Shown here piece by piece: positions 6,856 to 38,310 of a DNA stretch of 64,000 nucleotides (within the stretch, counting starts at the first letter, position 1; each line of letters begins with the position of its first letter). The translations under genes and the position numbers were made by a program. This DNA comes from Actinomycetes bacterium (lineage in GTDB: Bacteria; Actinomycetota; Thermoleophilia; Solirubrobacterales; 70-9), in assembly GCA_016861045.1 (NCBI GenBank), contig BOKP01000004.1:372001-436000 (forward strand), given 5' to 3'. The notes beneath the pieces were generated by a model. The model was not told the DNA's origin. It was given only the letters and a program-made list of their open reading frames with translations, and made no database searches.

Positions 6856-7616
6856 TTGCTGACCGTGTCATTCACGCCGGGATCGCAATCGTCGTTCCCT
6901 CCGCCTCCATTGAGCGTGTCCGGGTCGCCGCCATCGCCCGTACCGATCAGGATGTCGTCCCCCTCCGCTCCGGCCATGTCGTCGTTGCCGAGGCCGCCGC
7001 TGAGGAAATCATTGCCCTCGCCACCGTCGAGATCATCCCAGCCGTCAGATCCGAGGATGCCGAGTACGTAGTTGCTTCCCCCGCTCTTCGCGCGATCCCA
7101 GCCACCTTGGCCGAAGATTACGTCAGCGCCGCCATTGCCGTTGTTGGTGTCGGCCCCTTCGCCGGCTCGAATGTCGTCGTCGCCACCCTCGCCGTTGACG
7201 ATGTCGTCGCCTTGACCGCCAGTGACGACGTCGTTCGCTGCCTTGGCTTCGATCTTGGTCCCGGCCATCGGCCGACCAGTAATGTCGTCACGATCCGGCG
7301 TTCCGAGGCACAGGTAGCTCTGGCAGACGATCGTGTTGATCCGAAGCGCCTCCCCGACCTCCCGCTTCGTTCCGCCCGCGATCTTGCGACCAGCATCGGA
7401 GCGGACCGTAGCGAGGATCGCTTGGCATCCTTCACCGGGGCTCGCTTGGTCCCGGCAGAACGCGGCGACTTCGCTGATCGGCACCGCGCCGTCTTCCATC
7501 GTCGCATCGGTTTCTACCGTCGGCAAGACCGCCTGCTTCTTCGCGCCGTCTGCCGTGCCAGCGAGCACGAAGGTGGCGACGGTGGCCATCGCGATCGAAG
7601 TCATCAGAACCTTCAT
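6849..7616 (-). CDS. secreted RTX (hemolysin-type calcium-binding repeat) protein
   Basis: A 255-aa protein with a signal peptide (MKVLMTSIAMATVATFVLAG, ending near TADGA), a Cys-containing spacer (about 25-125) and then about seven glycine/aspartate nonapeptides of the GGxGxDxxx type (GGQGDDIVN, GEGGDDDIR, GNGGADVIF, GGEGNDFLS, GGLGNDDMA, GAEGDDILI, GGGGNDDCD). These bind calcium as a parallel beta-roll outside the cell. It ends right after the repeats with a Cys pair and no enzymatic domain, so it is probably a structural or surface protein, not a toxin. ATG 7614-7616 is preceded by GGAGG at ideal spacing; a second ATG at 7628 lies before it. It sits in the lower-GC insert. Confidence 0.85.
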   Translation of the reverse strand: MKVLMTSIAMATVATFVLAGTADGAKKQAVLPTVETDATMEDGAVPISEVAAFCRDQASPGEGCQAILATVRSDAGRKIAGGTKREVGEALRINTIVCQSYLCLGTPDRDDITGRPMAGTKIEAKAANDVVTGGQGDDIVNGEGGDDDIRAGEGADTNNGNGGADVIFGQGGWDRAKSGGSNYVLGILGSDGWDDLDGGEGNDFLSGGLGNDDMAGAEGDDILIGTGDGGDPDTLNGGGGNDDCDPGVNDTVSNC

Positions 7617-7628
7617 GAGCGCCTCCAT

Positions 7629-7754
7629 GCGTTGATGTGTGGCGAAAGTAGCTTGGGGGGGGGCGCGGAAGTCAAGATCTCTGGCCGAATGTCCATTGAT
7701 CCAAAGGACCTGTAGGGTCCGAGCCGGGTTTCGCGACTTCGGAGGAACGTGACC
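7629..7754. other. divergent intergenic region between RTX and double-SDR genes
   Basis: Holds a run of nine G (around 7657-7665) and the ggagga ribosome-binding site (7741-7746) of the rightward gene. A ttgatc/tagggt pair near 7698-7720 resembles promoter hexamers but is too closely spaced to be convincing. Confidence 0.3.
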
Positions 7755-9893
7755 ATGGCCTACTTCGTCACCGGCGCAACCGGCTTCATCGGGCGCAACC
7801 TGGTCGAGCTCCTGCTCGAGCGCGAGGGGACGATCTACGTGCTCGTTCGCGAGGGCTCGCAGGGCCGGCTGGCCGAGCTCCGCAACCGCTGGGGGGTCGA
7901 CGAGGAGCGGGTGGTCGGGATCGTCGGCGACCTCTCGCAGCGCCGCCTCGGGGTCTCCGACGAGGACGTGAAGCGGCTGCGGGGGAAGGTGGATCACCTC
8001 TTCCACCTCGCCGCGATCTACGACATGAAGGCGGACGCGGAGTCGCAGCGGGTCGCCAACGTCGAGGGAACGCGGCACATGGTCGAGCTCGCCGAGGCGG
8101 TCGAGGCCGGACGGGTCCACATGGTCAGCTCGATCGCCGCCGCCGGCCTCTACCGCGGCACCTGGCGCGAGGACATGTTCGACGAGGCCCAGGATCTCGA
8201 CACCCATCCCTACTTCCGGACCAAGCACGAGTCGGAGCGGGTCGTCCGCGAGGAGTGCCCGCGGCCGTGGCGGGTCTACCGCCCGGGAATCGTCGTCGGC
8301 GACTCCGAGACCGGCGAGATGGACAAGATCGACGGCCCCTACTACTTCTTCAAGCTGATCCGGCGGATCCGCCAGGTCGTGCCGGCGTGGATGCCGGTGC
8401 CGGGCGTCGAGGGCCGCGAGATCAACATCGTCCCGGTCGACTTCGTCGTCAGGGCGATGGACCACATCGCCCACCTCGACGGGCTCGACGGCCGCGCCTT
8501 CAGCCTCACCGACCCCGACCCGCTCAGCGCCGGCGAGGTGATCGACGTCTTCGCCCGCGCCGCGCACGCGCCGCAGTCGACGCTGCGCGCGCCGGCGGGG
8601 GCGACCGAAGCCATGGCGCCGCTGCTCTCGTTCGCCCTCGGCAACGTCCCGCTCGCCGACGCGCTCGCCGATCGCGCCCTCGGGGACTTCGGGATCCCGC
8701 GCTCTGTCCTGATGTACCTCAACTACCCGACCCACTTCGACTCGCGCCGCACCCAGGCGGCGCTGGCCGGGACCGGGATCAAGGTGCCGCCGCTGGAGGC
8801 CTACGCCGGCAAGCTCTGGGACTACTGGGCCCGCCACCTCGACCCCGACCTCTACCGCGACAACACGCTCGTCGGCGCCGCCCGCGGCCGGGCCGGGATC
8901 GTCGGCGGGATCGCCCAGATCCTCGAGCACCAGATCCCCGACGAGCTCGTCCGCTTCGGACGGCGCCTGCAGGGCAACGCCTCGCTCGAGAAGGAGGTCG
9001 AGGGCAGGGTGGTGCTCGTCACCGGCGCCTCCTCAGGGATCGGCAAGGCGGCGGCGATGAAGATCGCCGACGCCGGCGGGACCGTCCTGCTCGTCGCGCG
9101 GACGCCGGAGAAGCTCGAGGAGACGCGGGACCAGATCGTCGACGGCGGCGGGGTGGCGCACATCCACCGCTGCGACCTCTCCGACGTCGACGACATCGAC
9201 CGGATGGCCCGGGAGGTCCTCGACCAGCACGGCGCCGTCGATGTGCTGATCAACAACGCGGGACGCTCGATCCGGCGCTCGATCGCGCTCTCCTACGACC
9301 GCTTCCACGACTTCGAGCGGACGATGCAGCTCAACTACTTCGGGCCGGTGCGGCTGATCCTGCGGCTGTTGCCGGTGATGCGCCAGCGCCGCTCCGGGCA
9401 GATCATCAACGTCAGCTCGATCGGGGTGCAGACGAACATGCCGCGCTTCTCCGCCTACGTCGCCTCGAAGTCGGCGCTCGACGCGTTCTCGCGCTGCATC
9501 GCCTCCGAGGTGATCGACGACAAGGTCAACATCACGACGATCCACATGCCGCTCGTGCGGACGCCGATGATCGCGCCGACGAAGATGTACGACCGCTTCC
9601 CGACGATCACGCCGGACGAGGCGGCCGACATGCTCTGCGACGCGATCACCTTCAAGCCGAAGCGGATCGCGACGCCGGTCGGGACGCTCGGGCAGATCCT
9701 CTACGCGATCAACCCGAAGTCGATGGACTACGTCCTCAACAGCGCCTACCACATGTTCCCGGACTCGACCGCGGCCAAGGGCGGCAAGCCGAAGCAGCCG
9801 GGCTCCCGGGCAGAGCACGCGGAGGCGACCGAGGAGCAGGCGTCCAACCGGCAGCTCGCCCTCGCCTACCTGATGCGCGGCGTCCACTGGTAG
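7755..9893 (+). CDS. two-domain SDR oxidoreductase, fatty acyl reductase-like
   Basis: A 712-aa fusion of two Rossmann-fold reductases. Residues 1 to about 370 form an extended SDR (NAD-binding VTGATGFIG at the N-terminus, catalytic-type YFRTK near 155), and about 410-660 a classical SDR (LVTGASSGIG, NNAG, YVASK). This architecture matches mycobacterial AcrA1/Fcr1-type proteins (Rv3391, Rv1543), which reduce fatty acyl-CoA to aldehyde or alcohol for wax ester and lipid synthesis; substrate here is inferred only. ATG 7755 sits 8 bases after ggagga; a GTG six bases earlier is too close to it. Transcribed alone, with a small unknown gene convergent to it. Confidence 0.88.
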   Translation: MAYFVTGATGFIGRNLVELLLEREGTIYVLVREGSQGRLAELRNRWGVDEERVVGIVGDLSQRRLGVSDEDVKRLRGKVDHLFHLAAIYDMKADAESQRVANVEGTRHMVELAEAVEAGRVHMVSSIAAAGLYRGTWREDMFDEAQDLDTHPYFRTKHESERVVREECPRPWRVYRPGIVVGDSETGEMDKIDGPYYFFKLIRRIRQVVPAWMPVPGVEGREINIVPVDFVVRAMDHIAHLDGLDGRAFSLTDPDPLSAGEVIDVFARAAHAPQSTLRAPAGATEAMAPLLSFALGNVPLADALADRALGDFGIPRSVLMYLNYPTHFDSRRTQAALAGTGIKVPPLEAYAGKLWDYWARHLDPDLYRDNTLVGAARGRAGIVGGIAQILEHQIPDELVRFGRRLQGNASLEKEVEGRVVLVTGASSGIGKAAAMKIADAGGTVLLVARTPEKLEETRDQIVDGGGVAHIHRCDLSDVDDIDRMAREVLDQHGAVDVLINNAGRSIRRSIALSYDRFHDFERTMQLNYFGPVRLILRLLPVMRQRRSGQIINVSSIGVQTNMPRFSAYVASKSALDAFSRCIASEVIDDKVNITTIHMPLVRTPMIAPTKMYDRFPTITPDEAADMLCDAITFKPKRIATPVGTLGQILYAINPKSMDYVLNSAYHMFPDSTAAKGGKPKQPGSRAEHAEATEEQASNRQLALAYLMRGVHW

Positions 9894-23412: not shown

Positions 23413-24878
23413 CCGCCTTCCGCGACCTCGGCCTCGCCGGGGGCATCGTCACGGCGCTCGACGAGCTCGGCTACGAGGAGCCCTCGCCGATCCAGGAGAG
23501 GGCGATCCCGGAGCTGCTCGCCGGCCACGACGTGATCGGCCAGGCGCAGACCGGCACCGGCAAGACGGCCGCCTTCGGGCTGCCGCTCCTGCAGTACCTC
23601 GATCCCGGCAGCGACGAGACCCAGGCGATCGTGCTGACGCCGACCCGGGAGCTCTGCATCCAGGTGACCCAGGCCCTGCGCTCCTACGCCGAGCACCTCG
23701 ACGTCAACGTCGTCGCCGTCTTCGGCGGCACATCCGTCCGCGACCAGGCGGCTCGCGTCCGCTCCGGTGCCCACGTCGTCGTCGCCACGGTCGGCCGGAT
23801 GATGGACCTGATCTCGCGCGGGGCGCTCGTTCTCACCGGCGCCCGCTACGTCGTCCTCGACGAAGCCGACGAGATGCTCGATCTCGGCTTCATCGAGGAC
23901 GTCGAGCGGATCCTGCGGATGTGCCCGAACGGGCGTCAGACGATGCTCTTCAGCGCGACGATGCCGCCGCCGATCGCCCGTCTCGCCGAGCGCTACATGT
24001 ACGACCCGGTGACGATCTCGATCACGCCGAAGAAGCTGACGGTGGACGCGATCGAGCAGGCGTTCGTCGAGGTCGAGCCGAAGCGCAAGACCGACCGCCT
24101 CGTCGAGGTGCTTCGCGCCGAGGAGCCCGAGCAGGCGATCGTCTTCTGCCGGACCAAGATCGGGACCGCGCGCCTCGATCGGGCGCTGCGCGACCGCGGG
24201 CTCCGCTCGAAGGCCCTGCACGGCGACATGAGCCAGGGCCAGCGCGACGGCGTGATGATCTCGTTCAAGGAGCACAAGTCGCCGCTGCTGGTCGCAACCG
24301 ACGTCGCCGCCCGCGGGCTCGACATCGACCACGTGACCCACGTCATCAACTACGACCTCCCGAACAACAGCGAGATCTACGTGCACCGGATCGGCCGCAC
24401 CGGCCGCGTCGGCCGCACCGGGCGGGCGATCACGTTCGTGACCCCGAAGGAGCGCGGCGAGATCGAGCGGATCGAGCGGGAGGTCAGGACCTCGATCGGC
24501 GAGTGGGAGCCGCCGGAGGAGCGCCTCGACCACGCGCCGCGCCCGAAGCGCCGCCACGAGCGTCGCGGCCCGGGCGGGCCCGGGGTCGCCGGGGAGGCCC
24601 CCGCGGAGGCCGGGCCGGAGCCGCCGCGGCCACCCGGCGACGGCCACGTGAAGCTCTTCATCAACCGCGGCTCGCGCAGCGGCATCGACGAGGACGACGT
24701 TCGCTGGGCGTTGCGCGAGGGCGCCGTCATCCCCGCCGACTCGATCCACGACGTGCGGGTGCTCGAGCGGTTCACGTTCGTCGACCTCGACGACCAGCAG
24801 GCGGAGAAGGCGCTCGACCGGCTCGACGGCACGAAGCTCAGGGGCAAGCAGATCCGGCTCGAGTACGCGAACCGGTAG
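23409..24878 (+). CDS. DEAD-box ATP-dependent RNA helicase with DbpA-type C-terminal domain
   Basis: A 489-aa RNA helicase. Motifs in order: Q motif (PSPIQERAIPELL), I (AQTGTGKT, about 46-53), Ia (PTREL), II (DEAD in VVLDEADEMLD), III (SAT), IV (AIVFCRTK), V (ATDVAARGLDI), VI (HRIGRTGRVGR). After a basic/proline-rich linker (about 375-415) comes an RRM-like DbpA RNA-binding domain (VKLFINRGSRSGIDEDDVRW). DbpA/CsdA-type enzymes act in ribosome assembly and mRNA remodelling. GTG 23409 start overlaps the preceding stop. The DbpA domain does not by itself show 23S rRNA specificity. Confidence 0.95.
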   Translation: MTAFRDLGLAGGIVTALDELGYEEPSPIQERAIPELLAGHDVIGQAQTGTGKTAAFGLPLLQYLDPGSDETQAIVLTPTRELCIQVTQALRSYAEHLDVNVVAVFGGTSVRDQAARVRSGAHVVVATVGRMMDLISRGALVLTGARYVVLDEADEMLDLGFIEDVERILRMCPNGRQTMLFSATMPPPIARLAERYMYDPVTISITPKKLTVDAIEQAFVEVEPKRKTDRLVEVLRAEEPEQAIVFCRTKIGTARLDRALRDRGLRSKALHGDMSQGQRDGVMISFKEHKSPLLVATDVAARGLDIDHVTHVINYDLPNNSEIYVHRIGRTGRVGRTGRAITFVTPKERGEIERIEREVRTSIGEWEPPEERLDHAPRPKRRHERRGPGGPGVAGEAPAEAGPEPPRPPGDGHVKLFINRGSRSGIDEDDVRWALREGAVIPADSIHDVRVLERFTFVDLDDQQAEKALDRLDGTKLRGKQIRLEYANR

Positions 24879-24884
24879 GAGCCC

Positions 24885-26498
24885 GTGGGGGTCGCGAGGA
24901 GCCGTCCCGCGCCCGTCGTGCTGCTGGCCGCCGCCCTCGCGGCGGCGCTGAGCGGCGTCTACCTGGCCTGGCAGCCGCAGCCGCTCGACCTCTCGGCCCA
25001 GGTGTTCCGGGCCGACCTCTGGGCCGAGCACGGCTGGGTCATCTACAACGACGCCTGGTACGGGGGCCACACGATCCCCGGCTACAGCCTCCTCTATCCG
25101 CCGCTCGGAGCGTGGATCGGGCCGGAGTTGCTCGGGGCGTTCTGTGCGGTGGTCGCCGCCCTCGCCTTCGGCGCGATCGCCGTTCGCGCCTACGGCGAGC
25201 GGGCCTGGCTCGGCGCCGTCTGGTTCGGCCTCGGCGCGACCGTCTCCCTGTACGGAGGCAGGACGACCTTCGGCCTCGGGCTCGCGCTCGGCCTGCTCGC
25301 GCTGCTGGCCCTGCAGCGCCGCCGCCCCGGTCGGGCGGCCCTCGCCGCCGCCGCCGCCGGCCTGGCGAGCCCGGTCGCCGGCCTGTTCACGGCCCTCGCC
25401 GCGGCCGCGGTGCTCGTCGCTTCGCGGCTGCAGCCGGTCGCAACCGCGGCGGCCCGGCGGCGCGAGCGGGCCGCCCTCGCCGCCCTTGCCGCCGCCGTCA
25501 TCGCGACCGCGGCCCTCGCCGCCGCCTTCCCGACCCCCGGCCATCAGCCGTTCACCGCCGACACGTTCGTGTGGGTGCCGCTCGCCTGCGCGGTCTGCTT
25601 CGCGGTGCTGCCGGTCGGGGAGACGACGCTGCGGGTCGGGATCGTCCTCTACGCGATCGTCGCGATCGTTGCGTTCGCCGTGGCGACGCCGCTCGGCAGC
25701 AACGTGATCAGGCTCGGCGCGATCTTCGCCGGCCCGGTGATGGCGCTGGCCCTCTACCGGCGCCGCCCCGTCGCCCTCCTCCTGCTCGCCGCTCCGCTGC
25801 TCTGGTGGCAGTGGTCGGCGACGATCCGCGACCTCGCCGCCGCGGCCGGAGACCCCGCCGTCGAGGCCGCCTACTACGAGCCCCTGGTCGCCGAGCTCGA
25901 AGCGCGTGAAGGCGGCGGGCCGATCCGGATCGAGATCCCGCCGACGAGGAGCCGCTGGGAGTCGGTCTACGTGGCCGAGCGGGTCCCGATCGCGCGCGGA
26001 TGGCTGCGGCAGATGGAGTCGGACGACCTGCATCGCTTCACCGGCGGCCGGCTCACCCCGACCTCCTACGCGAGCTGGCTGCGCTCCGAGGGCGTCGACT
26101 ACGTGGCGCTTCCCGACGCCGAGCTCGACTTCCTCGCCGAGGACGAGGCGGCGCTGCTGGCCGCCGGCGGGCTCGATTTCCTCCGGCCCGTCTGGTCGAA
26201 CGAGCACTGGCGGCTGTGGGAGGTCGAGCCCGGCGACCGCCAGTCGATCCGCCCCGACGCCGTCGCCCCCGACGGCTATGACGTCTCCGTTCCCGGTCCC
26301 GGCAGCTACCTGATCCGGATGCGCTGGTCCCCGTACCTCCGAATCGTCTCCGGCCGGGGCTGCCTGCAGGAGCGGGGCCGGGAGTCGACGCTGCTGACGG
26401 TCCCGGCCGGCGCCGGTGCCGAGCGGGTCGAGGTGCGGGCCTCGTTCACGCTCGCCGGCCTGCTGCGCCGCGAGCCCGCCTGCGCCGACCCCGGCTAG
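24885..26498 (+). CDS. polytopic membrane protein with large extracytoplasmic C-terminal domain
   Basis: A 537-aa protein: about 8-9 hydrophobic helices up to residue 310, including an early extracellular loop (VIYNDAWYGGHTIPGYSLL) typical of a family of actinobacterial GT-C-like or 6-PTPS-related membrane proteins, and then a soluble C-terminal part of about 220 residues (WESVYVAERVPIARGWLRQM, YASWLRSEGVDYVALPD). Function not recognised. GTG start lies six bp after the helicase stop with ggagcc upstream, so it may be the last gene of that operon. It ends in a CTAG shared with the convergent HAD gene. Confidence 0.7.
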   Translation: MGVARSRPAPVVLLAAALAAALSGVYLAWQPQPLDLSAQVFRADLWAEHGWVIYNDAWYGGHTIPGYSLLYPPLGAWIGPELLGAFCAVVAALAFGAIAVRAYGERAWLGAVWFGLGATVSLYGGRTTFGLGLALGLLALLALQRRRPGRAALAAAAAGLASPVAGLFTALAAAAVLVASRLQPVATAAARRRERAALAALAAAVIATAALAAAFPTPGHQPFTADTFVWVPLACAVCFAVLPVGETTLRVGIVLYAIVAIVAFAVATPLGSNVIRLGAIFAGPVMALALYRRRPVALLLLAAPLLWWQWSATIRDLAAAAGDPAVEAAYYEPLVAELEAREGGGPIRIEIPPTRSRWESVYVAERVPIARGWLRQMESDDLHRFTGGRLTPTSYASWLRSEGVDYVALPDAELDFLAEDEAALLAAGGLDFLRPVWSNEHWRLWEVEPGDRQSIRPDAVAPDGYDVSVPGPGSYLIRMRWSPYLRIVSGRGCLQERGRESTLLTVPAGAGAERVEVRASFTLAGLLRREPACADPG

Positions 26499-27247
26499 TC
26501 AAGCCGACGGGAAGATCCGGGCTTCGCCCGTCCGCTTCCGCCGGACCGTCGCCGGGGCCGGGGCGGCGCCGGGGCCGCCGCACCCCTCACGGGGCCCTCG
26601 GAGCCGCCGCGCCCCGGCGGGGGCTCGAGGCGCAGTCCCAGCAGGCGCTCGAGGCCGGCGATCGTCGTGGCCGGGTCGCGGTGGAGGATCGCGGCCATGC
26701 CGACGGCCTCGGCGCCGGCGACGTTCTCGCGCAGGTCGTCGACGAAGACGCAGCGGTCGGCCGGGACGCCGATCCGCTCGGCGCCGAGCAGGTAGATCTC
26801 CGGCTGCGGCTTGTGCAGGCCGACGTCGCCGGAGATCACGGTCGCGTCGAACCGGTCGAGCGGCGCCCGGTCGTAGATCCCCATCCCCCACGAGTTCGTG
26901 ATCAGCCCGGTCCGGATGCCGGCGGCCCGTGCCGATCCGACGGCGTCGATCATCCGCCGCTCGGGGCGGAGGCCGCCGAACAGGCGCTCGATCAGCCCCT
27001 CGGGCTCGACCCCGAGCATCTCCGCGAAGTCGCGCTCGAAGACGTGGTCGGCTACGGCGCCGCGCTCGAGCGAGCGCAGCAGCGCCAGCGCCTCGCCGTC
27101 ACCGCGGAACAGCTCGAGAACGGTCCCGCGCTCGAGCCCCTCGCGGTCGCAGAAGCGGTCGAAGCTCGCCCAGATGTTGGTCGTCAGCACCCCGCCGAAA
27201 TCGACCAGGAGCCCCCGCGGTTCCCGCTCGGCCATGTCGGGACTCAT
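26495..27247 (-). CDS. HAD-superfamily hydrolase, ACAD10 N-domain type
   Basis: A 250-aa HAD-IA phosphatase-like protein. Motif I is LLVDFGGVLTTN (first Asp as nucleophile), II ITNSWG, III the lysine of GLHKPQPEIYLLG, IV VFVDDLRENV. The FGGVL form is shared with the HAD domain of ACAD10 and of soluble epoxide hydrolase. A Pro/Arg-rich tail of about 40 residues follows. Start is ATG 27247 or ATG 27235; no ribosome-binding site marks either. It stands head to head (33 bp) with the APH kinase gene, and a matching acyl-CoA dehydrogenase follows that. Confidence 0.85.
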   Translation of the reverse strand: MSPDMAEREPRGLLVDFGGVLTTNIWASFDRFCDREGLERGTVLELFRGDGEALALLRSLERGAVADHVFERDFAEMLGVEPEGLIERLFGGLRPERRMIDAVGSARAAGIRTGLITNSWGMGIYDRAPLDRFDATVISGDVGLHKPQPEIYLLGAERIGVPADRCVFVDDLRENVAGAEAVGMAAILHRDPATTIAGLERLLGLRLEPPPGRGGSEGPVRGAAAPAPPRPRRRSGGSGRAKPGSSRRLD

Positions 27248-27265
27248 ATCAGCAGGGCTCGGCAA

Positions 27266-27271
27266 TAGGGT
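27266..27271 (+). promoter_or_regulatory. -10 hexamer TAGGGT before the APH kinase gene
   Basis: TAGGGT, eight bases (gcggagcc), then ATG 27280. Leaderless pattern; the ggag in the spacer is too close to the start to be a normal ribosome-binding site. Confidence 0.5.
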
Positions 27272-27279
27272 GCGGAGCC

Positions 27280-28317
27280 ATGGCCGCGGAGGCGGAGATC
27301 GAGGGGATCGACGGCGCTCGCGTCGGCGCCTGGCTCGAGGCGAACGTCGCCGGCGCGACCCCGCCGTTCGGCTACGAGCGGATCGCCGGCGGGCGCTCGA
27401 ACCTGACCTACGCCGTCACCGATGCCGGCGGGGGCAAGTGGGCCCTGCGGCGGCCGCCGCTCGGCAAGGCGCTCGGCTCCGCGCACGACATGGGCCGCGA
27501 GCACCGGGTCGTCTCCGCGCTCGGGCCGACCCCGGTCCCGGTCGCGCCGATCGCCGGCTACTGCCCCGACGAGGCCGTCAACGGCGCCCCGTTCTACGTG
27601 ATGGAGTTCGTCGAGGGGCCGATCCTGCGGCTGCGCGGCGACGCGGAGGCGTTCGACGAGGCCGGGCGCGGTGCGGTCGGCGAGCGGGTCGTCGACACCC
27701 TGGTCGAGATCCACGCCCTCTCCCCCGACGGGGTCGGGCTCGGCGATCTCGGCCGCAAGGAGGACTACGTCGCCCGTCAGCTCAACCGCTGGAGCCGCCA
27801 GTGGGTCGGCTCGAAGACGCGCGAGGTCCCGCTCGTCGACGCGGTCGGCGAGCGGCTCGCGGCGCGGATCCCCGAGCAGGGACCGGCCACCCTCGTCCAC
27901 GGCGACTACCGGCTCGACAACATGATCCTCACCGCGGCCGGCGAGGTAGCGGCCGTCGTCGACTGGGAGCTCTGCACGCTCGGCGACCCGCTCGCCGACG
28001 TCGGCCTGCTGCTCGTCTACTGGGCCGAGGAGGGCGACTCGCTCCTACCCCTGTTCGAGCCGGCGACGATGGCGCCCGGCTTCCCCTCCCGGGCCGAGGT
28101 CCGCGACCGCTACGCCGAGCGCTCCGGCCGCGACCTGGCCGCGATCGACTTCTTCGTCGCGCTCGGCTACTGGAAGCTGGCGATCATCCTCGAGGGGGTC
28201 TTCTCGCGCTACGCGAAGGGCCAGTACGGCAAGCCCGAGGACGGCTTCGAGGAGTTCGGCCGTAACGTCGACCGGCTCGCCGAGGCGGCCGACGAGGCGG
28301 TCTCGCGCCTGGACTGA
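27280..28317 (+). CDS. APH-family kinase, ACAD10/11 kinase-domain type
   Basis: A 345-aa phosphotransferase with the aminoglycoside/choline kinase fold: ATP-binding N-lobe (YERIAGGRSNLTYAVTDAGG), catalytic loop LVHGDYRLDNMIL and metal-binding VVDWELCTLGDPLADVG. The GGRSNLTY and GREHRVVSAL forms are those of the kinase domains of ACAD10/11 and of LvaA, which phosphorylate 4-hydroxyacyl-CoAs. Since the HAD and acyl-CoA dehydrogenase neighbours are the other parts of ACAD10, gamma-hydroxy acid catabolism is the best guess. It is not likely to be an antibiotic kinase. Confidence 0.88.
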   Translation: MAAEAEIEGIDGARVGAWLEANVAGATPPFGYERIAGGRSNLTYAVTDAGGGKWALRRPPLGKALGSAHDMGREHRVVSALGPTPVPVAPIAGYCPDEAVNGAPFYVMEFVEGPILRLRGDAEAFDEAGRGAVGERVVDTLVEIHALSPDGVGLGDLGRKEDYVARQLNRWSRQWVGSKTREVPLVDAVGERLAARIPEQGPATLVHGDYRLDNMILTAAGEVAAVVDWELCTLGDPLADVGLLLVYWAEEGDSLLPLFEPATMAPGFPSRAEVRDRYAERSGRDLAAIDFFVALGYWKLAIILEGVFSRYAKGQYGKPEDGFEEFGRNVDRLAEAADEAVSRLD

Positions 28318-28487
28318 GCCGAGGGCGCGGCCCGGCGCCGCCGCGGATCTCGCACGCGACCGGCATGGATGGCCGGCTCTGGCCGGATGGCGATGCCACC
28401 GGCTCGCGCGCGAGCGGTCCAGGTCGCGGGATTCGATGGCGAGGCCCCGGCGGCTCTCGCACGGCTCGCGGCGCCACGGCCGGATGG

Positions 28488-29696
28488 CTAGGCGTAGCGG
28501 TTGAGCTCGCGGCGGGCGACCACCATCTTGTGGACCTCGTCGGGGCCGTCGGCGACCTTGAGCATGCGGCTGAAGCGCCACATCGCCGCGAGCGGCGTGT
28601 CGTCGGACATGCCGAGGGCCCCGTGGACCTGGATCGCGCGATCGAGGACGTCCATGACGACGTTGGCGGCGACGACCTTGATCATCGAGATCTCGCGCCG
28701 GGCCTCGCGCTTGCCGGCGGTGTCCATCAGCCACGCCGCCTTCAGGGTGAGCAGTCGCGCCTGCTCGGTCTCGATCCGGCTCTTGGCGATGAAGTCCTGG
28801 ACGAACTGCTTGTCGGCGAGCTTCGAGCCGAAGGCCTCGCGCTCGCTCGCGCGCCGCGACATCAGCTCGATCGCCCGCTCGCAGGTCCCGATCGCCCGCA
28901 TGCAGTGGTGGATCCGGCCCGGCCCGAGGCGATCCTGGGCGATCACGAAGCCGGCGCCGCGCGGGCCGAGCAGGTTCGCCTCCGGGACGCGGCAGTCCTC
29001 GTAGCGGATCTCGCAGTGGCCCGGTCCCCGCTCGTGGCCCATGACCGGGACCGAGCGGACCAGCTCGAACCCGGGCTGGTCGGTCGGGACGATGATCATC
29101 GACGCCTTCGCGTAGGGAGCGGCGTCGGGATCGGTGACGACCATCGCGATCGCGAGGTCGGCGCCGACCGCGCCCGAGGTGAACCACTTGTGGCCGTTGA
29201 TGACCCACTCCCCGGACCCCTCGTCGAGCTCGGCGCGGGCCCGCAGCGTCGTCGGGTCGGAGCCCGCCACCTCCGGCTCGGTCATCGAGAAGCAGGAGCG
29301 CGAGTGCTCGTTGAGCAGCGGCTCGAGCCAGCGCCGCTTCTGCTCGTCGGTCCCGTGCTCGACGAGGATCTCCATGTTGCCGGTGTCGGGCGCGGCGCAG
29401 TTGAAGGCCATCGGCGCCACCACCGGGCTGCGGCCCATCTCCTCGCAGAGCATCCCGTACTCCCAGTTGGTCAGCCCGGCGCCGTGCTCGTCGCCGGGGA
29501 GGAACAGGTTCCAGAGCCCCTCGGCGCGCGCCTTCTCGCGGATCCCGACGAGGATCTCCGGGTAGGCGACCCCGGGCCGGACCTCCTCGTCGATCGCGGC
29601 GATCGCCTCCGCCTCGACCGGATAGACGTGCTCGTCCATGAACCCTCGGACGCGCCCGAGCAACTCCTCGAGCCGGTCTCCGAGGGCGAAGTCCAT
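28488..29696 (-). CDS. acyl-CoA dehydrogenase, ACAD10/11 type
   Basis: A 402-aa flavoprotein. The usual regions are present (SCFSMTEPEVAGSDPTTLRA, INGHKWFTSGAVGADLAIAM, ASEREAFGSKLADKQFV), and the C-terminus reads MLKVADGPDEVHKMVVARRE: the ADGPDEVH motif replaces the IxEGTxEI of ordinary acyl-CoA dehydrogenases and is typical of ACAD10/11, which eliminate phosphate from a 4-phospho-acyl-CoA rather than simply oxidise. The gene converges on the APH kinase gene, with a 170-bp gap between them that shows no gene. ATG 29694-29696 lies nine bases after a TAGGCT hexamer. Confidence 0.93.
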   Translation of the reverse strand: MDFALGDRLEELLGRVRGFMDEHVYPVEAEAIAAIDEEVRPGVAYPEILVGIREKARAEGLWNLFLPGDEHGAGLTNWEYGMLCEEMGRSPVVAPMAFNCAAPDTGNMEILVEHGTDEQKRRWLEPLLNEHSRSCFSMTEPEVAGSDPTTLRARAELDEGSGEWVINGHKWFTSGAVGADLAIAMVVTDPDAAPYAKASMIIVPTDQPGFELVRSVPVMGHERGPGHCEIRYEDCRVPEANLLGPRGAGFVIAQDRLGPGRIHHCMRAIGTCERAIELMSRRASEREAFGSKLADKQFVQDFIAKSRIETEQARLLTLKAAWLMDTAGKREARREISMIKVVAANVVMDVLDRAIQVHGALGMSDDTPLAAMWRFSRMLKVADGPDEVHKMVVARRELNRYA

Positions 29697-29705
29697 CGGG
29701 TCCGG

Positions 29706-29711
29706 AGCCTA
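29706..29711 (-). promoter_or_regulatory. -10 hexamer TAGGCT overlapping the upstream stop codon
   Basis: On the minus strand TAGGCT, nine bases, then ATG 29696. The TAG of the hexamer is also the stop codon of the TSUP gene. Suggests an internal leaderless promoter rather than simple read-through. Confidence 0.45.
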
Positions 29712-30755
29712 TCTGAGCGCGGGATCGTCGCGGGCCTCGGAGCCGTCGCGGTCGGCTCGCGGGCTTGCTCGGTCCGCGGCCGGGGGGGTCGCGCCGTCCG
29801 CGGACCGATCGACCTCGATCAGGTGGGTCGGCCGCCGCCACGGCACGCTGACGAGCTTCCAGGCGCGGATGCCGACCCCGTGCGGGAGCTTGACCTCGCG
29901 CCGCAGGACGTAGGTGAAGACGACTCCGAACATCAGCGACACGAAGGCGGCGGTGACCATGACGACGGCGCCGTCGCCCTTCGTGATCAGCGTGATCCCG
30001 GATGCGATCAGGACCACCGAGAGCAGGCTCCGCAGCAGGTTCTTCCCGCTCTTGAACGCGAGCCTGCCGCCGATCAGCACGCCGGGGACGGAGCCGAGCA
30101 GGATGTTGCCGGCGAGCCCGAAGTCGACGTTCCCGGTCACCCAGTGGGCGATGCCGGCGGCCCAGAGCAGGACCGCGGCGTGGAAGATGTCGGTGCCGAC
30201 GACGCGCTGCGGGGTGAGCCGGAAGACCGCGATCAGGATGATCGCGATCAGCGTGCCCGAGCCGGCGGAGGTGAGGCCGATCACGAACCCCGTCGTGACC
30301 CCGGTCGCGACCGCGGCGACGATGTGACGGTGGTAGAGGTGGAGGGCGTAGCGCTCCTTGATCACGTCGGGGATGAAGATCGTCCGCAGCGCCGTCGCGA
30401 CGCCGACCACGAGCAGCGTCGCGCCGAGGATCCCGAACACGATCCCGTCGAGCTCCTGCTCGCCGACGGTGCTCTTCAGGTACTCGATGACGCCGACGCC
30501 GGCGAGCGCGGCGGGCACGCTGCCGACCGCCATCCAGAACGCGAGCCCCTTGTGGACGGTGCCGGCGCGCAGGTGCTGGACGCCGCCGACCGTCTTGGTC
30601 ACGGCGGCGTAGAAGATGTCGGTGCCGATCGCGGTCACCGGCTGGACGCCGAAGATCAGGATCAGAAGCGGCGTCATCAGCGAGGCGCCGCCCATCCCGG
30701 TCATCCCGACCAGGAGGCCGATGCCGAATCCGAAGGCGACGATCGCGGGGTCCAT
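29709..30755 (-). CDS. TSUP-family (TauE/SafE) anion transporter
   Basis: A 348-aa membrane protein with two repeats of about four helices, each starting with a glycine-rich TSUP signature (GFGIGLLVGMTGMGGASLMT and TGFVIGLTSAGSGTLIAI), each followed by a TDIF motif (AIGTDIFYAAVTK, VVGTDIFHAAVL). Family members export sulfite, sulfoacetate or related anions. The C-terminal 50 residues are hydrophilic. It follows the Rrf2 regulator gene on the same strand (103 bp), and the sulfate assimilation operon is 5 kb away, so sulfite or sulfate-related transport is a reasonable inference. Confidence 0.9.
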   Translation of the reverse strand: MDPAIVAFGFGIGLLVGMTGMGGASLMTPLLILIFGVQPVTAIGTDIFYAAVTKTVGGVQHLRAGTVHKGLAFWMAVGSVPAALAGVGVIEYLKSTVGEQELDGIVFGILGATLLVVGVATALRTIFIPDVIKERYALHLYHRHIVAAVATGVTTGFVIGLTSAGSGTLIAIILIAVFRLTPQRVVGTDIFHAAVLLWAAGIAHWVTGNVDFGLAGNILLGSVPGVLIGGRLAFKSGKNLLRSLLSVVLIASGITLITKGDGAVVMVTAAFVSLMFGVVFTYVLRREVKLPHGVGIRAWKLVSVPWRRPTHLIEVDRSADGATPPAADRASPRADRDGSEARDDPALR

Positions 30756-35631: not shown

Positions 35632-36189
35632 TCAGCCCCTGGCCGGGATCAGCTCCCGCTGCTCGAGGTAGGCGAGGATCTGCTCGGCGCTCTCCACCGG
35701 CGTCTTGCCGTGGGTCTCGACCCGGATCTCGGGGCTCTCGGGCTCCTCGTAAGGGTCGGAGATGCCGGTGAACTCCTTGATCTCGCCGGAGCGCGCCTTC
35801 GCGTAGAGGCCCTTGGTGTCGCGCGCCTCGCAATCCTCGAGCGAGGTGGCGACGAAGACCTCGACGAAAGCCGCGCCGGTCTCCTCGTGCATCGTCCGCG
35901 CCTCGTCGCGGATCGCCCGGTAGGGGGAGATCGCGGCGGTGATCACCGGAACGCCGTTGCGCGAGAGCAGGTCGGCGACGAAGGCGATCCTGCGGATGTT
36001 GATGTCGCGGTCCTCCTTCGAGAAGCCGAGCCCCTTCGAGAGGTTCTCGCGAACGACGTCGCCGTCGAGCACCTCGAGCGGGATCCCGCGCTCGTCGAAC
36101 TCGTCGATCAGCACCTCGGTGATCGTCGACTTGCCCGAGCCCGAGAGCCCGGTCATCCAGAGCGTGAATCCCTTGTGGTCGTTTGCCAT
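35632..36189 (-). CDS. cysC: adenylylsulfate kinase (CysC)
   Basis: A 185-aa kinase making PAPS from APS and ATP. P-loop WMTGLSGSGKST at about 11-22, the LDGDVVRENLSKGLGFS APS-binding region, RRIAFVADLLSRNG, ISPYRAIRDEAR and GLYAKARSGEIKEFTGISDPYE lid. Last gene of the leftward sulfate assimilation operon, 99 bp after sat. Because the CysH of this operon is of the Fe-S type that can reduce APS directly, the PAPS made here may serve sulfation as well as, or instead of, reduction. Confidence 0.97.
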   Translation of the reverse strand: MANDHKGFTLWMTGLSGSGKSTITEVLIDEFDERGIPLEVLDGDVVRENLSKGLGFSKEDRDINIRRIAFVADLLSRNGVPVITAAISPYRAIRDEARTMHEETGAAFVEVFVATSLEDCEARDTKGLYAKARSGEIKEFTGISDPYEEPESPEIRVETHGKTPVESAEQILAYLEQRELIPARG

Positions 36190-36208
36190 CGCTAGCGGTT
36201 TCTCCTTG

Positions 36209-36250
36209 TTGCTGCTTGCTGCCTGCTGCCTGCTGCCTGCTGCCCGCTGC
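36209..36250. repeat. heptanucleotide tandem repeat between sat and cysC
   Basis: Six head-to-tail units of YYGCTGC (ttgctgc twice, ctgctgc three times, ccgctgc once) fill 42 of the 99 bases between the two genes. It lies just upstream of the cysC start, on the template side, so copy number could change spacing or translation of cysC. Confidence 0.8.
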
Positions 36251-36288
36251 CCGACCGGCGGCGAGCGGAAGTCCGGCTCGATCCGCGC

Positions 36289-37356
36289 CTACATCTCCCT
36301 GTAGGCCTCGATCAGGATCTCGGCCACCTCGGGCCGCGAGAACTCGTGCGGGGGCGCCTCGCCGTCCTCGAGCATCCCGCGCACCTTGGTCCCGCTGAGG
36401 AAGAGGCGGTCGTCGGGGGTGTGCGGGCAGGTCTTGTTCGAGCCCAGCCCCTCGCATTCGTAGCACCAGAACGTGTGCTCGAACATCAGCGGCCGGATCC
36501 CGAGCTTGTCGATGTCGATCTCGCCGAAGATCTCCTGGGCGTCGTAGGTGCCGTAGTAGTCGCCGACGCCGGCGTGGTCGCGGCCGACGATGAAGTGGGT
36601 CGCCCCGTAGTTGCGGCGGACGATCGCGTGGAAGATCGCCTCCCGCGGGCCGGCATAGCGCATCGCCGCCGGGTTGACGCCGAGCACGACCCGGTCGTTG
36701 GGGTAGTACTTCTCCATCAGCACCTCGTAGCAGCGCATCCGCACGTCGGCCGGGATGTCCCCCTTCTTCGTCTCGCCGATCAGCGGATGCAGGAAGAGCC
36801 CGTCGGAGACCTCGAGCGCGGCCTTCGTCAGGTACTCGTGGGCGCGGTGGATCGGGTTCCGGGTCTGGAAGGCGACGATCCGCTTCCAGCCGCGGTCGGC
36901 GAACTCCTTGCGCGACTGCTCCGGGGTGAAGTAGCGGCGCATGAAGGCTGCCTCGTGATCGGGCATGTCGTCGGCCTCGATCTCGCCGGCGATGCAGCGG
37001 CTGCCCTCGGCCTTGGTCGCGGCGACGCCGGGGTGGGCGTCGTCGGTCGTCCGGTAGACGTTCTCGCACTCGGAATCGACGTCGCGCTCGAAGACCTCGG
37101 AGACGCGGATCCGCCCGAGCGGCTTGCCGTCGTCGGCGCTGAGCGCGACGACGTCGCCCTCGCTCGCTTCGAGGTCGGTGGCGAGCGTGACCGGGATCGA
37201 CCAGACCTCCTCGCCGTCGGCGAGGGTCATGCTCTCGACGCTCGCGCGCCAGTCCTCGGAGCCCATGAAGCCCGTGAGCGGGGCGAAGCCACCGTTGGCG
37301 AGCAGCTCGAAGTCGGCGGTCTGGCGGGCGGACAGCGTCAGGGACTTGTCACTCAT
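36289..37356 (-). CDS. sat: sulfate adenylyltransferase (ATP sulfurylase)
   Basis: A 355-aa monofunctional ATP sulfurylase (sulfate + ATP to APS). Active-site motifs: QTRNPIHRAHEYL (sulfate and ATP contacts), GVNPAAMRYAGPREAIFHAI and GRDHAGVGDYYG; a CYECEGLGSNKTCPH zinc-type cluster follows, common in the bacterial Sat-type enzymes. Shorter than the 390-aa average because the C-terminal domain is trimmed. Middle of the operon, 84 bp after cysH. Confidence 0.97.
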   Translation of the reverse strand: MSDKSLTLSARQTADFELLANGGFAPLTGFMGSEDWRASVESMTLADGEEVWSIPVTLATDLEASEGDVVALSADDGKPLGRIRVSEVFERDVDSECENVYRTTDDAHPGVAATKAEGSRCIAGEIEADDMPDHEAAFMRRYFTPEQSRKEFADRGWKRIVAFQTRNPIHRAHEYLTKAALEVSDGLFLHPLIGETKKGDIPADVRMRCYEVLMEKYYPNDRVVLGVNPAAMRYAGPREAIFHAIVRRNYGATHFIVGRDHAGVGDYYGTYDAQEIFGEIDIDKLGIRPLMFEHTFWCYECEGLGSNKTCPHTPDDRLFLSGTKVRGMLEDGEAPPHEFSRPEVAEILIEAYREM

Positions 37357-37440
37357 CGGTGGGGTCGCTCCTCTGGGGGTCGAAGAATCGGTCTGTGGCT
37401 TCGTGGCGGACGGGAAAGCTACAGGTGAGCCGCGATCCCG

Positions 37441-38310
37441 TCAGCCGTGCAGGCCGCACTCGGTCTTGTGGGCGTCGGCCCAGCGACCCGAGCGGGCGTC
37501 GTCGGCGGCTCCCGGCGGGCGGGTGCAGGGGGCGCACCCGATCGATGGGTAGCCGGCGTCGTGAAGCGGGTTGTAGGGGACCCCGCGCTCGTTCACGTAG
37601 TCCCAGACCTCGGCCTCGGTCCAGTCGGCGAGCGGGTTCAGCTTCCAGAGGCCGAAGCGCTTGTCCCAGCCGAACTTCGCGGCCCCGGCCCGGGTCCGGG
37701 AGTCCTCGCGACGGATCCCCGAGACCCAGCAGTCGGTCCCGCGCAGCGCCGCTCGCATCGGCTCGACCTTGCGGATCCCGCAGCAGGCGTCGGGCTGGCG
37801 AGCCCAGAGGCTATCGCCGTAGAGCTGCTCCTGCTCGGCGAGCGGGATCGGGGCGAAGCGCTCGAACTCGACCCCGTAGCGGGCGGCGAGGGCATCGCGC
37901 GTCGCGTAGGTCTCCTCGAACAGCAGGTCGGTGTCGAGGTAGAAGAAGCCGGCGCCGACGTCGCCTCCGGTCAGCCGGTGGACGATGTCGATCGTGACCG
38001 AGGTCGTCTTCTGGAACGAGCAGGCGAACCGGAGCCGCGGCCGGAACGTCGCCAGCGCCCAGGCGATCGCCTCCTCCGCCCCGAGCGCCTCGAGGTGGGC
38101 GCTGACCTCGCGCGGGTCGATCGGATCGCCGGCTGCCGTCCGCAGGGCCGATGCCCGGGCACGCGGCGACGCCTCGCGCGGCACCCGCTCGGCCTCGATC
38201 GCCGGCAGCGGGGTACTGCTCGCGGAGGCCGGCAAGCTCACCTCAGCGACGGCCGGCAGCCGCGCCGGCGGAGCCGGGCGGGCGGCGAAGGGACGTGTCC
38301 GCCCCGGCAA
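37441..38310 (-). CDS. cysH: APS/PAPS reductase with Fe-S cysteine motif (CysH)
   Basis: A reductase producing sulfite from adenylylsulfate. The PP-loop-like core (FACSFQKTTSVTIDI) and the cysteine pattern DACCGIRKVEP, GCAPCTR, and ECGLHG at the C-terminus are those of the 4Fe-4S type that reduces APS (some also take PAPS). Cys of the final ECGLHG is the catalytic residue. The TTG start at 38310 gives 289 aa with a Pro/Ala-rich lead; GTG 38241 (266 aa) is a plausible alternative. Lies 48 bp after the sulfite reductase gene. Confidence 0.95.
   Translation of the reverse strand: MPGRTRPFAARPAPPARLPAVAEVSLPASASSTPLPAIEAERVPREASPRARASALRTAAGDPIDPREVSAHLEALGAEEAIAWALATFRPRLRFACSFQKTTSVTIDIVHRLTGGDVGAGFFYLDTDLLFEETYATRDALAARYGVEFERFAPIPLAEQEQLYGDSLWARQPDACCGIRKVEPMRAALRGTDCWVSGIRREDSRTRAGAAKFGWDKRFGLWKLNPLADWTEAEVWDYVNERGVPYNPLHDAGYPSIGCAPCTRPPGAADDARSGRWADAHKTECGLHG

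Follow-up and report, generated by a model that had tools for sequence, protein, structure and literature searches.

A three-gene actinobacterial counterpart of the fused enzyme ACAD10, including its HAD domain

A 64,000-nucleotide stretch of the genome of an actinobacterium of the class Thermoleophilia (contig BOKP01000004.1, positions 372,001 to 436,000; hereafter the window) carries side by side the genes of a HAD-superfamily protein, an APH-fold kinase and an acyl-CoA dehydrogenase (ACAD), which together are a three-gene bacterial counterpart of the fused animal enzyme ACAD10, its HAD domain included (Table 1). We consider it likely, on the basis of homology, active-site residues, fold and conserved gene association, that the kinase and the dehydrogenase turn a 4-hydroxyacyl-CoA into an enoyl-CoA, and that the HAD protein limits the phosphorylated intermediate. 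A preliminary description of the window had called the three genes a split ACAD10. This observation is real and its main interpretation sound: the open reading frames lie at the place and on the strands described, with the end then given (29711) falling slightly past the ATG of the dehydrogenase.

The HAD domain is the one part of ACAD10 without an accepted function. Because the bacterial counterpart is a separate protein, its role can be tested directly: it can be purified, its gene can be deleted, and it can be combined freely with the kinase. A natural comparison is also at hand, since the same genomic family includes close relatives that have the HAD gene and others that lack it. The cluster also points to many actinobacteria, annotated so far at the level of general families, that are likely to use 4-hydroxy acids or gamma-lactones. 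No earlier description of a HAD partner in bacteria was found in PMC11342911, PMC12440821 or the other literature returned by our search (subscription literature lay outside it).

Table 1. Features of the cluster and its immediate surroundings (window coordinates)
Feature	Position	Strand	Remarks
HAD-superfamily protein, soluble epoxide hydrolase (sEH) N-terminal phosphatase / YihX type, D-F-G-G motif I	26495..27265	-	start probably 27235 or 27247
APH-fold 4-hydroxyacyl-CoA kinase (predicted), LvaA / ACAD10-ACAD11 kinase-domain type	27280..28317	+	
Acyl-CoA dehydrogenase, ACAD10/ACAD11/LvaC subgroup, catalytic Asp in ADGPDEVH	28488..29696	-	
Intergenic stretch separating the HAD and kinase starts (divergent); may hold a promoter region shared by both	27236..27279	.	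sequence reading
TauE/SafE sulfite-exporter family gene	29709-30755	-	12 bp upstream of dehydrogenase, same strand

The HAD gene is a conserved partner of the kinase gene

We examined the three genes in a set of 61 genomes (the organism's own and those of its genus, family and order). The dehydrogenase was present in 56 genomes, the kinase in 54 and both in 53, and every HAD-bearing genome also contained the kinase. HAD orthologues lay within 1 kb of the kinase at 24 of 27 places, compared to none of 49 for HAD paralogues of the same genomes (Fisher 8e-17, a p-value that overstates independence, the 61 genomes being related), and at 25 of the 27 places they were near the kinase or the dehydrogenase. 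The co-occurrence that the preliminary description had proposed to look for in related genomes was thus borne out, and the HAD protein is a genuine conserved partner of the kinase, not a chance neighbour. The kinases themselves often keep company with the dehydrogenase, 39 of 76 lying within 2 kb of one of ACAD11 type. No replacement phosphatase was seen in most of the HAD-less relatives that we inspected; where these have the kinase, the divergent slot beside it is mostly occupied by a sensor histidine kinase and a response regulator instead.

The association of HAD and kinase recurs outside Thermoleophilia, across Actinomycetota and in many gene orders, single operons included: ACAD-APH-HAD operons in several actinobacterial metagenome-assembled genomes, the order HAD-ACAD-APH in Janibacter, HAD-APH-ACAD in Nocardioides luteus, and APH-HAD pairs in many further actinobacteria. 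Fused HAD-kinase or kinase-ACAD reading frames were absent from all fetched loci. A kinase stood beside 8 of the 15 strongest HAD matches, and beside none of the 12 weaker ones, in a sample of 100 genomes of the phylum taken without filtering for the motif. Distances among adjacent HAD proteins correlate with those among their kinases (r 0.59; 0 of 2000 permutations), a correlation explained in part by shared descent.

These data bear on a reading in which the kinase and dehydrogenase do form a 4-hydroxyacyl-CoA pathway, while the HAD protein is a neighbour with a small-molecule phosphate substrate of its own, for example a sugar phosphate as in the case of Escherichia coli YihX. YihX is indeed among the closest solved folds (see below), and about half of the HAD loci fetched across the phylum have no kinase nearby. 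However, the adjacency to the kinase that paralogues lack, the several independent gene orders, and the fact that the HAD gene never occurs without the kinase among the 61 relatives make this reading unlikely.

The dehydrogenase resembles ACAD11 and LvaC

The best solved relatives of the dehydrogenase are 4hr3, a putative bacterial acyl-CoA dehydrogenase (6.1e-109), and ACAD11 (8v3u, 6.6e-107), with the next ordinary ACAD following only at 1.5e-49; human ACAD11 is also among them. In terms of score, mouse ACAD11 reached 361 bits vs. 172 bits for the best ordinary ACAD. The motif ADGPDEVH occupies residues 382-389 and aligns to the ADGPDEVH of mouse ACAD11, in which the first Asp, D753, is the catalytic base (PMC12440821). 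The equivalent residue of the window protein, D383, an Asp replacing the Glu usual at this position, is invariant in 17 relatives. Together with D753, which serves catalysis, residues R626, H634 and R637 of ACAD11 are specific to ACAD10/11 and to LvaC, the dehydrogenase of the Pseudomonas putida lva operon, these three being candidates for binding of the phospho-substrate (PMC12440821). Their equivalents lie in the segment DRLGPGRIHHCMR of the dehydrogenase, aligned to GRLGPGRIHHCMR of ACAD11, and none of the four equivalents varies among 17 related sequences, which include an ADGASEVH subgroup. This second kinase-linked subgroup (four loci) replaces ADGPDEVH by ADGASEVH and LGPGRIHHCMR by LAGGRLAHAMR, and retains the key R, H, R and D. 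The preliminary description had pointed to ADGPDEVH in place of IxEGTxEI; the motif is present, but it is not specific to ACAD10, being common to ACAD11 and LvaC-type enzymes. Taken together, the data place the protein in the ACAD10/ACAD11/LvaC subgroup.

The TauE/SafE gene directly upstream on the same strand, which also lies close to the dehydrogenase in 8 relatives, could point elsewhere, to a desulfinase-type ACAD tied to a sulfite exporter and a kinase unrelated to it, and the sulfate-assimilation genes at 35.6-38.3 kb would fit such a role. However, the model for 3-sulfinopropanoyl-CoA desulfinase gave 130 bits, far below its cut-off of 600, the set of ACAD11-type residues is complete, and many relatives in which kinase and dehydrogenase stay side by side have no TauE gene. 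We rejected the desulfinase assignment, which we regard as highly improbable.

The kinase retains the catalytic and CoA-contacting residues of ACAD11

The kinase matched the general APH family of Pfam (PF01636, 9.3e-50), and its best solved relatives were 9o56 (1.4e-60), 3dxp (2.9e-53) and mouse ACAD11 (8v3v, 2.8e-40). In the alignment, D209, N214 and R166 correspond to D220, N225 and R176 of mouse ACAD11 and are invariant in 23 kinases; in ACAD11 the first two are catalytic and R176 contacts CoA (PMC12440821). The Arg preceding the Glu of helix C is also retained (R73), with a numbering that differs from the R86 of that paper. A match to the general APH family would equally be expected of an antibiotic-modifying aminoglycoside kinase that had come to lie here by chance. 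The APH(3') models of NCBIfam, however, reached about 22 bits where the cut-off is 205. Moreover, the ACAD11 kinase and its bacterial counterparts are the closest proteins of solved structure, and the frequent proximity of such kinases to an ACAD11-type dehydrogenase speaks against a chance neighbourhood. Aminoglycoside resistance was accordingly rejected, its probability being close to nil.

The profile matches, the closest solved structures and the residues of the active sites bear out the earlier proposal that kinase and dehydrogenase are of the LvaA/LvaC-ACAD10/11 type, and they assign the kinase to the LvaA / ACAD10-ACAD11 type. Kinase and dehydrogenase homologues of Burkholderia pseudomallei substitute for the corresponding parts of ACAD10 in vitro (PMC11342911), so that function may reasonably be carried over from homologues, and we infer that the window kinase would phosphorylate 4-hydroxyacyl-CoA.

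The HAD protein lacks the usual general acid and keeps the other catalytic residues

In a profile search, the HAD protein matched Pfam PF00702 and PF13419; it scored 88.3 bits against TIGR02247, under the curated cut-off of 125.4. Its top sequence match in the PDB was the human sEH phosphatase (5mwa, 1.2e-9), and Foldseek, run with an AlphaFold (AF2) model (pLDDT 82.5), returned the sEH phosphatase domain first, followed by YihX. Motif I reads D-F-G-G, with the first Asp of the DxD motif kept and the second, the usual general acid, absent; the form D-[FYW]-G-G occurred in 25 of 25 HAD relatives read, a set chosen without selection on the motif. The sEH phosphatase retains the second Asp. D22, K152, D176 and D177 of the window protein are invariant in 16 aligned sequences. 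YihX has D-L-G-N as motif I, likewise without the second Asp, yet it is an active and specific glucose-1-phosphatase (PMC4251788), so the missing residue is no proof that the HAD protein is inactive.

We also considered DxG as a mark of kinase-linked HAD proteins and rejected it, since an unlinked paralogue of the same genome (C1:660057) has DxG too. The HAD matches from a pattern search of the genome contigs were selected for DxG, so they cannot serve as a test of this mark.

A likely pathway, and what weighs against it

In the pathway that we propose, a CoA ligase encoded elsewhere in the genome would make the 4-hydroxyacyl-CoA, and the kinase, using ATP, would place a phosphate on its 4-hydroxyl group. 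The dehydrogenase, with its Asp base and FAD, would then remove the phosphate without net oxidation to give a 2-enoyl-CoA, both steps being predicted from homology and kept residues, and this product would enter beta-oxidation. The HAD protein would act at the kinase step, keeping the pool of 4-phosphoacyl-CoA low. The genome contains 10 AMP-binding ligases, along with 18 matches to enoyl-CoA hydratase and 6 to thiolase. No substrate is named by the sequence of the window, and the earlier suggestion that it stems from oxidised lipids found no support here.

Since the Asp nucleophile, the Lys and the two metal-binding Asp residues do not vary, hydrolysis is most likely the means by which the HAD protein would lower 4-phosphoacyl-CoA. 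The main alternative dispenses with catalysis: the HAD protein would be a dead enzyme that attaches to the kinase and restrains it, the role proposed for the HAD domain within the ACAD10 fusion. The HAD domain of human ACAD10 has likewise kept only the first Asp of DxD, and the D48A exchange increased the output of the kinase, with phosphatase activity negligible (PMC11342911). On the other hand, a pure scaffold would need none of the four invariant residues, YihX is active with DLGN, and DxG is also found in the paralogue away from any kinase locus. A dead regulator is thus possible, though doubtful in our view. The preliminary description had suggested that the HAD protein hydrolyses stray phospho-acyl intermediates; this may be so, with the reservation that the ACAD10 domain restrains its kinase.

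Several observations weigh against the pathway as proposed, or against a part for the HAD protein in it. The second DxD Asp is missing not only from the window protein but from all 25 relatives, and the phosphatase activity of the ACAD10 domain is negligible (PMC11342911). The kinase occurs without the HAD gene in 28 related genomes, so the HAD protein must be dispensable, and in one family the HAD-kinase pair is distant from the dehydrogenase. Finally, when 109 HAD loci were sorted by gene order, 50 had neither kinase nor dehydrogenase nearby, many of these belonging to streptomycetes; the HAD family is therefore wider than the module.

An operon on a Tsukamurella plasmid

A search of plasmids gave only weak proteobacterial HAD matches (about 30 percent identity). 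In Tsukamurella, a plasmid operon (1-11045 of the fetched stretch) encodes a HAD protein, FabG, a MaoC hydratase, the kinase, three acyl-CoA dehydrogenases, a phosphotriesterase-family enzyme and a CoA ligase. The annotated start of its HAD gene is too late, cutting off motif I (DYGG); the true start lies upstream. Among PDB entries, the phosphotriesterase-family enzyme comes closest to 4if2, which bears the name phosphotriesterase homology protein, followed by aryldialkylphosphatases (2vc5, for instance), and we take enzymes of this kind to act as lactonases. It is plausible that the operon is a complete route from a gamma-lactone or a 4-hydroxy acid to beta-oxidation.

Relation to ACAD10, ACAD11 and the lva operon

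Animal ACAD10 has the same three parts: a dehydrogenase with the catalytic Asp and the residues for the phospho-substrate, a kinase with the corresponding residues, and a HAD domain that has the first DxD Asp only (PMC11342911, PMC12440821). It differs in being one fused chain, whereas the window has three genes in convergent and divergent orientation, which form operons elsewhere. The likeness of the two HAD parts is one of sEH N-terminal-type fold and motif, with ACAD10 compared by its published description. Mouse ACAD11 (8v3u, 8v3v) shares the homologous kinase and dehydrogenase with all key residues, and its HAD-free pathway matches the HAD-less relatives; it is, however, a kinase-dehydrogenase fusion, and has no HAD. 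The sEH N-terminal phosphatase and YihX have the same HAD fold and cap type, and YihX also the DxG. In contrast to the window protein, the sEH phosphatase domain is fused to an epoxide hydrolase, and YihX acts on glucose-1-phosphate.

The P. putida lva operon, as far as Rand 2017 is summarized in PMC6692424 and PMC12440821, resembles the cluster in having a kinase (LvaA) and an ACAD (LvaC) that work via a 4-phosphoacyl-CoA as separate proteins, with a third, small partner beside the kinase. According to the same summaries, this partner is the 12 kDa LvaB and a HAD protein does not figure in the operon. Among the reading frames read beside the window trio, lvaB, lvaD and lvaE were not found, nor was a levulinate cluster. 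In Pseudomonas citronellolis, a histidine phosphatase takes the place of LvaB beside the kinase (PMC6692424), and on a plasmid of Azospirillum thermophilum a histidine phosphatase family protein directly follows an LvaA-type kinase (7369-8082 of the fetched stretch).

We tentatively suggest that kinases of the LvaA/ACAD10 type commonly carry a partner that controls the phosphorylated intermediate, in a slot that unrelated proteins have filled three times: P. putida has LvaB there, P. citronellolis and Azospirillum have a histidine phosphatase, and Actinomycetota have a HAD protein without the usual general acid. The last would be the bacterial counterpart of the ACAD10 HAD domain and might be a real proofreading phosphatase or a switch for 4-phosphoacyl-CoA. 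Except for LvaA-LvaB, these associations rest on gene neighbourhood.

In a tree of 85 kinases, ACAD11 grouped with 3dxp and alphaproteobacterial kinases, while the window kinase fell in an actinobacterial clade where HAD-linked and HAD-free kinases are intermixed. The term split ACAD10 is apt for the three-domain analogy and appears to fit the mode of action, but not descent: we make no claim that ACAD10 descends from the bacterial module, for which we see no evidence, because the ACAD11 kinase lies outside the actinobacterial clades.

Gene layout and surroundings

The HAD and kinase genes diverge from a gap of about 32-44 bp, an arrangement retained in 11 relatives, and 170 bp separate the convergent kinase and dehydrogenase genes. 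The kinase starts with an ATG preceded by GGAG. The HAD gene probably starts at the ATG at 27235 or 27247, not at the TTG at 27265, since the orthologue of the same genus begins MADHELQGLL. A simple scan found no promoter of sigma-70 type and no terminator; in the HAD-kinase intergenic region, too, there was no sigma-70 consensus site. Dehydrogenase and TauE/SafE gene may share one transcript, because only 12 bp separate them on the same strand. The three transcripts assumed in the preliminary description agree with the gene directions of the window; the picture changes in that the dehydrogenase would probably be transcribed with its TauE/SafE neighbour, and that the trio is one operon elsewhere.

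In the 8 relatives where a TauE/SafE gene lies near the dehydrogenase, an Rrf2 regulator often follows beyond it. ARAGORN predicted a tRNA-Gly(ccc) at 24452-24540 (-), within the coding region of a DEAD-box helicase on the opposite strand, which is probably a false positive. A few kb from the TauE/SafE gene, at 35632-38310, are sulfate-assimilation genes, by our reading of the APS kinase, ATP sulfurylase and PAPS reductase type.

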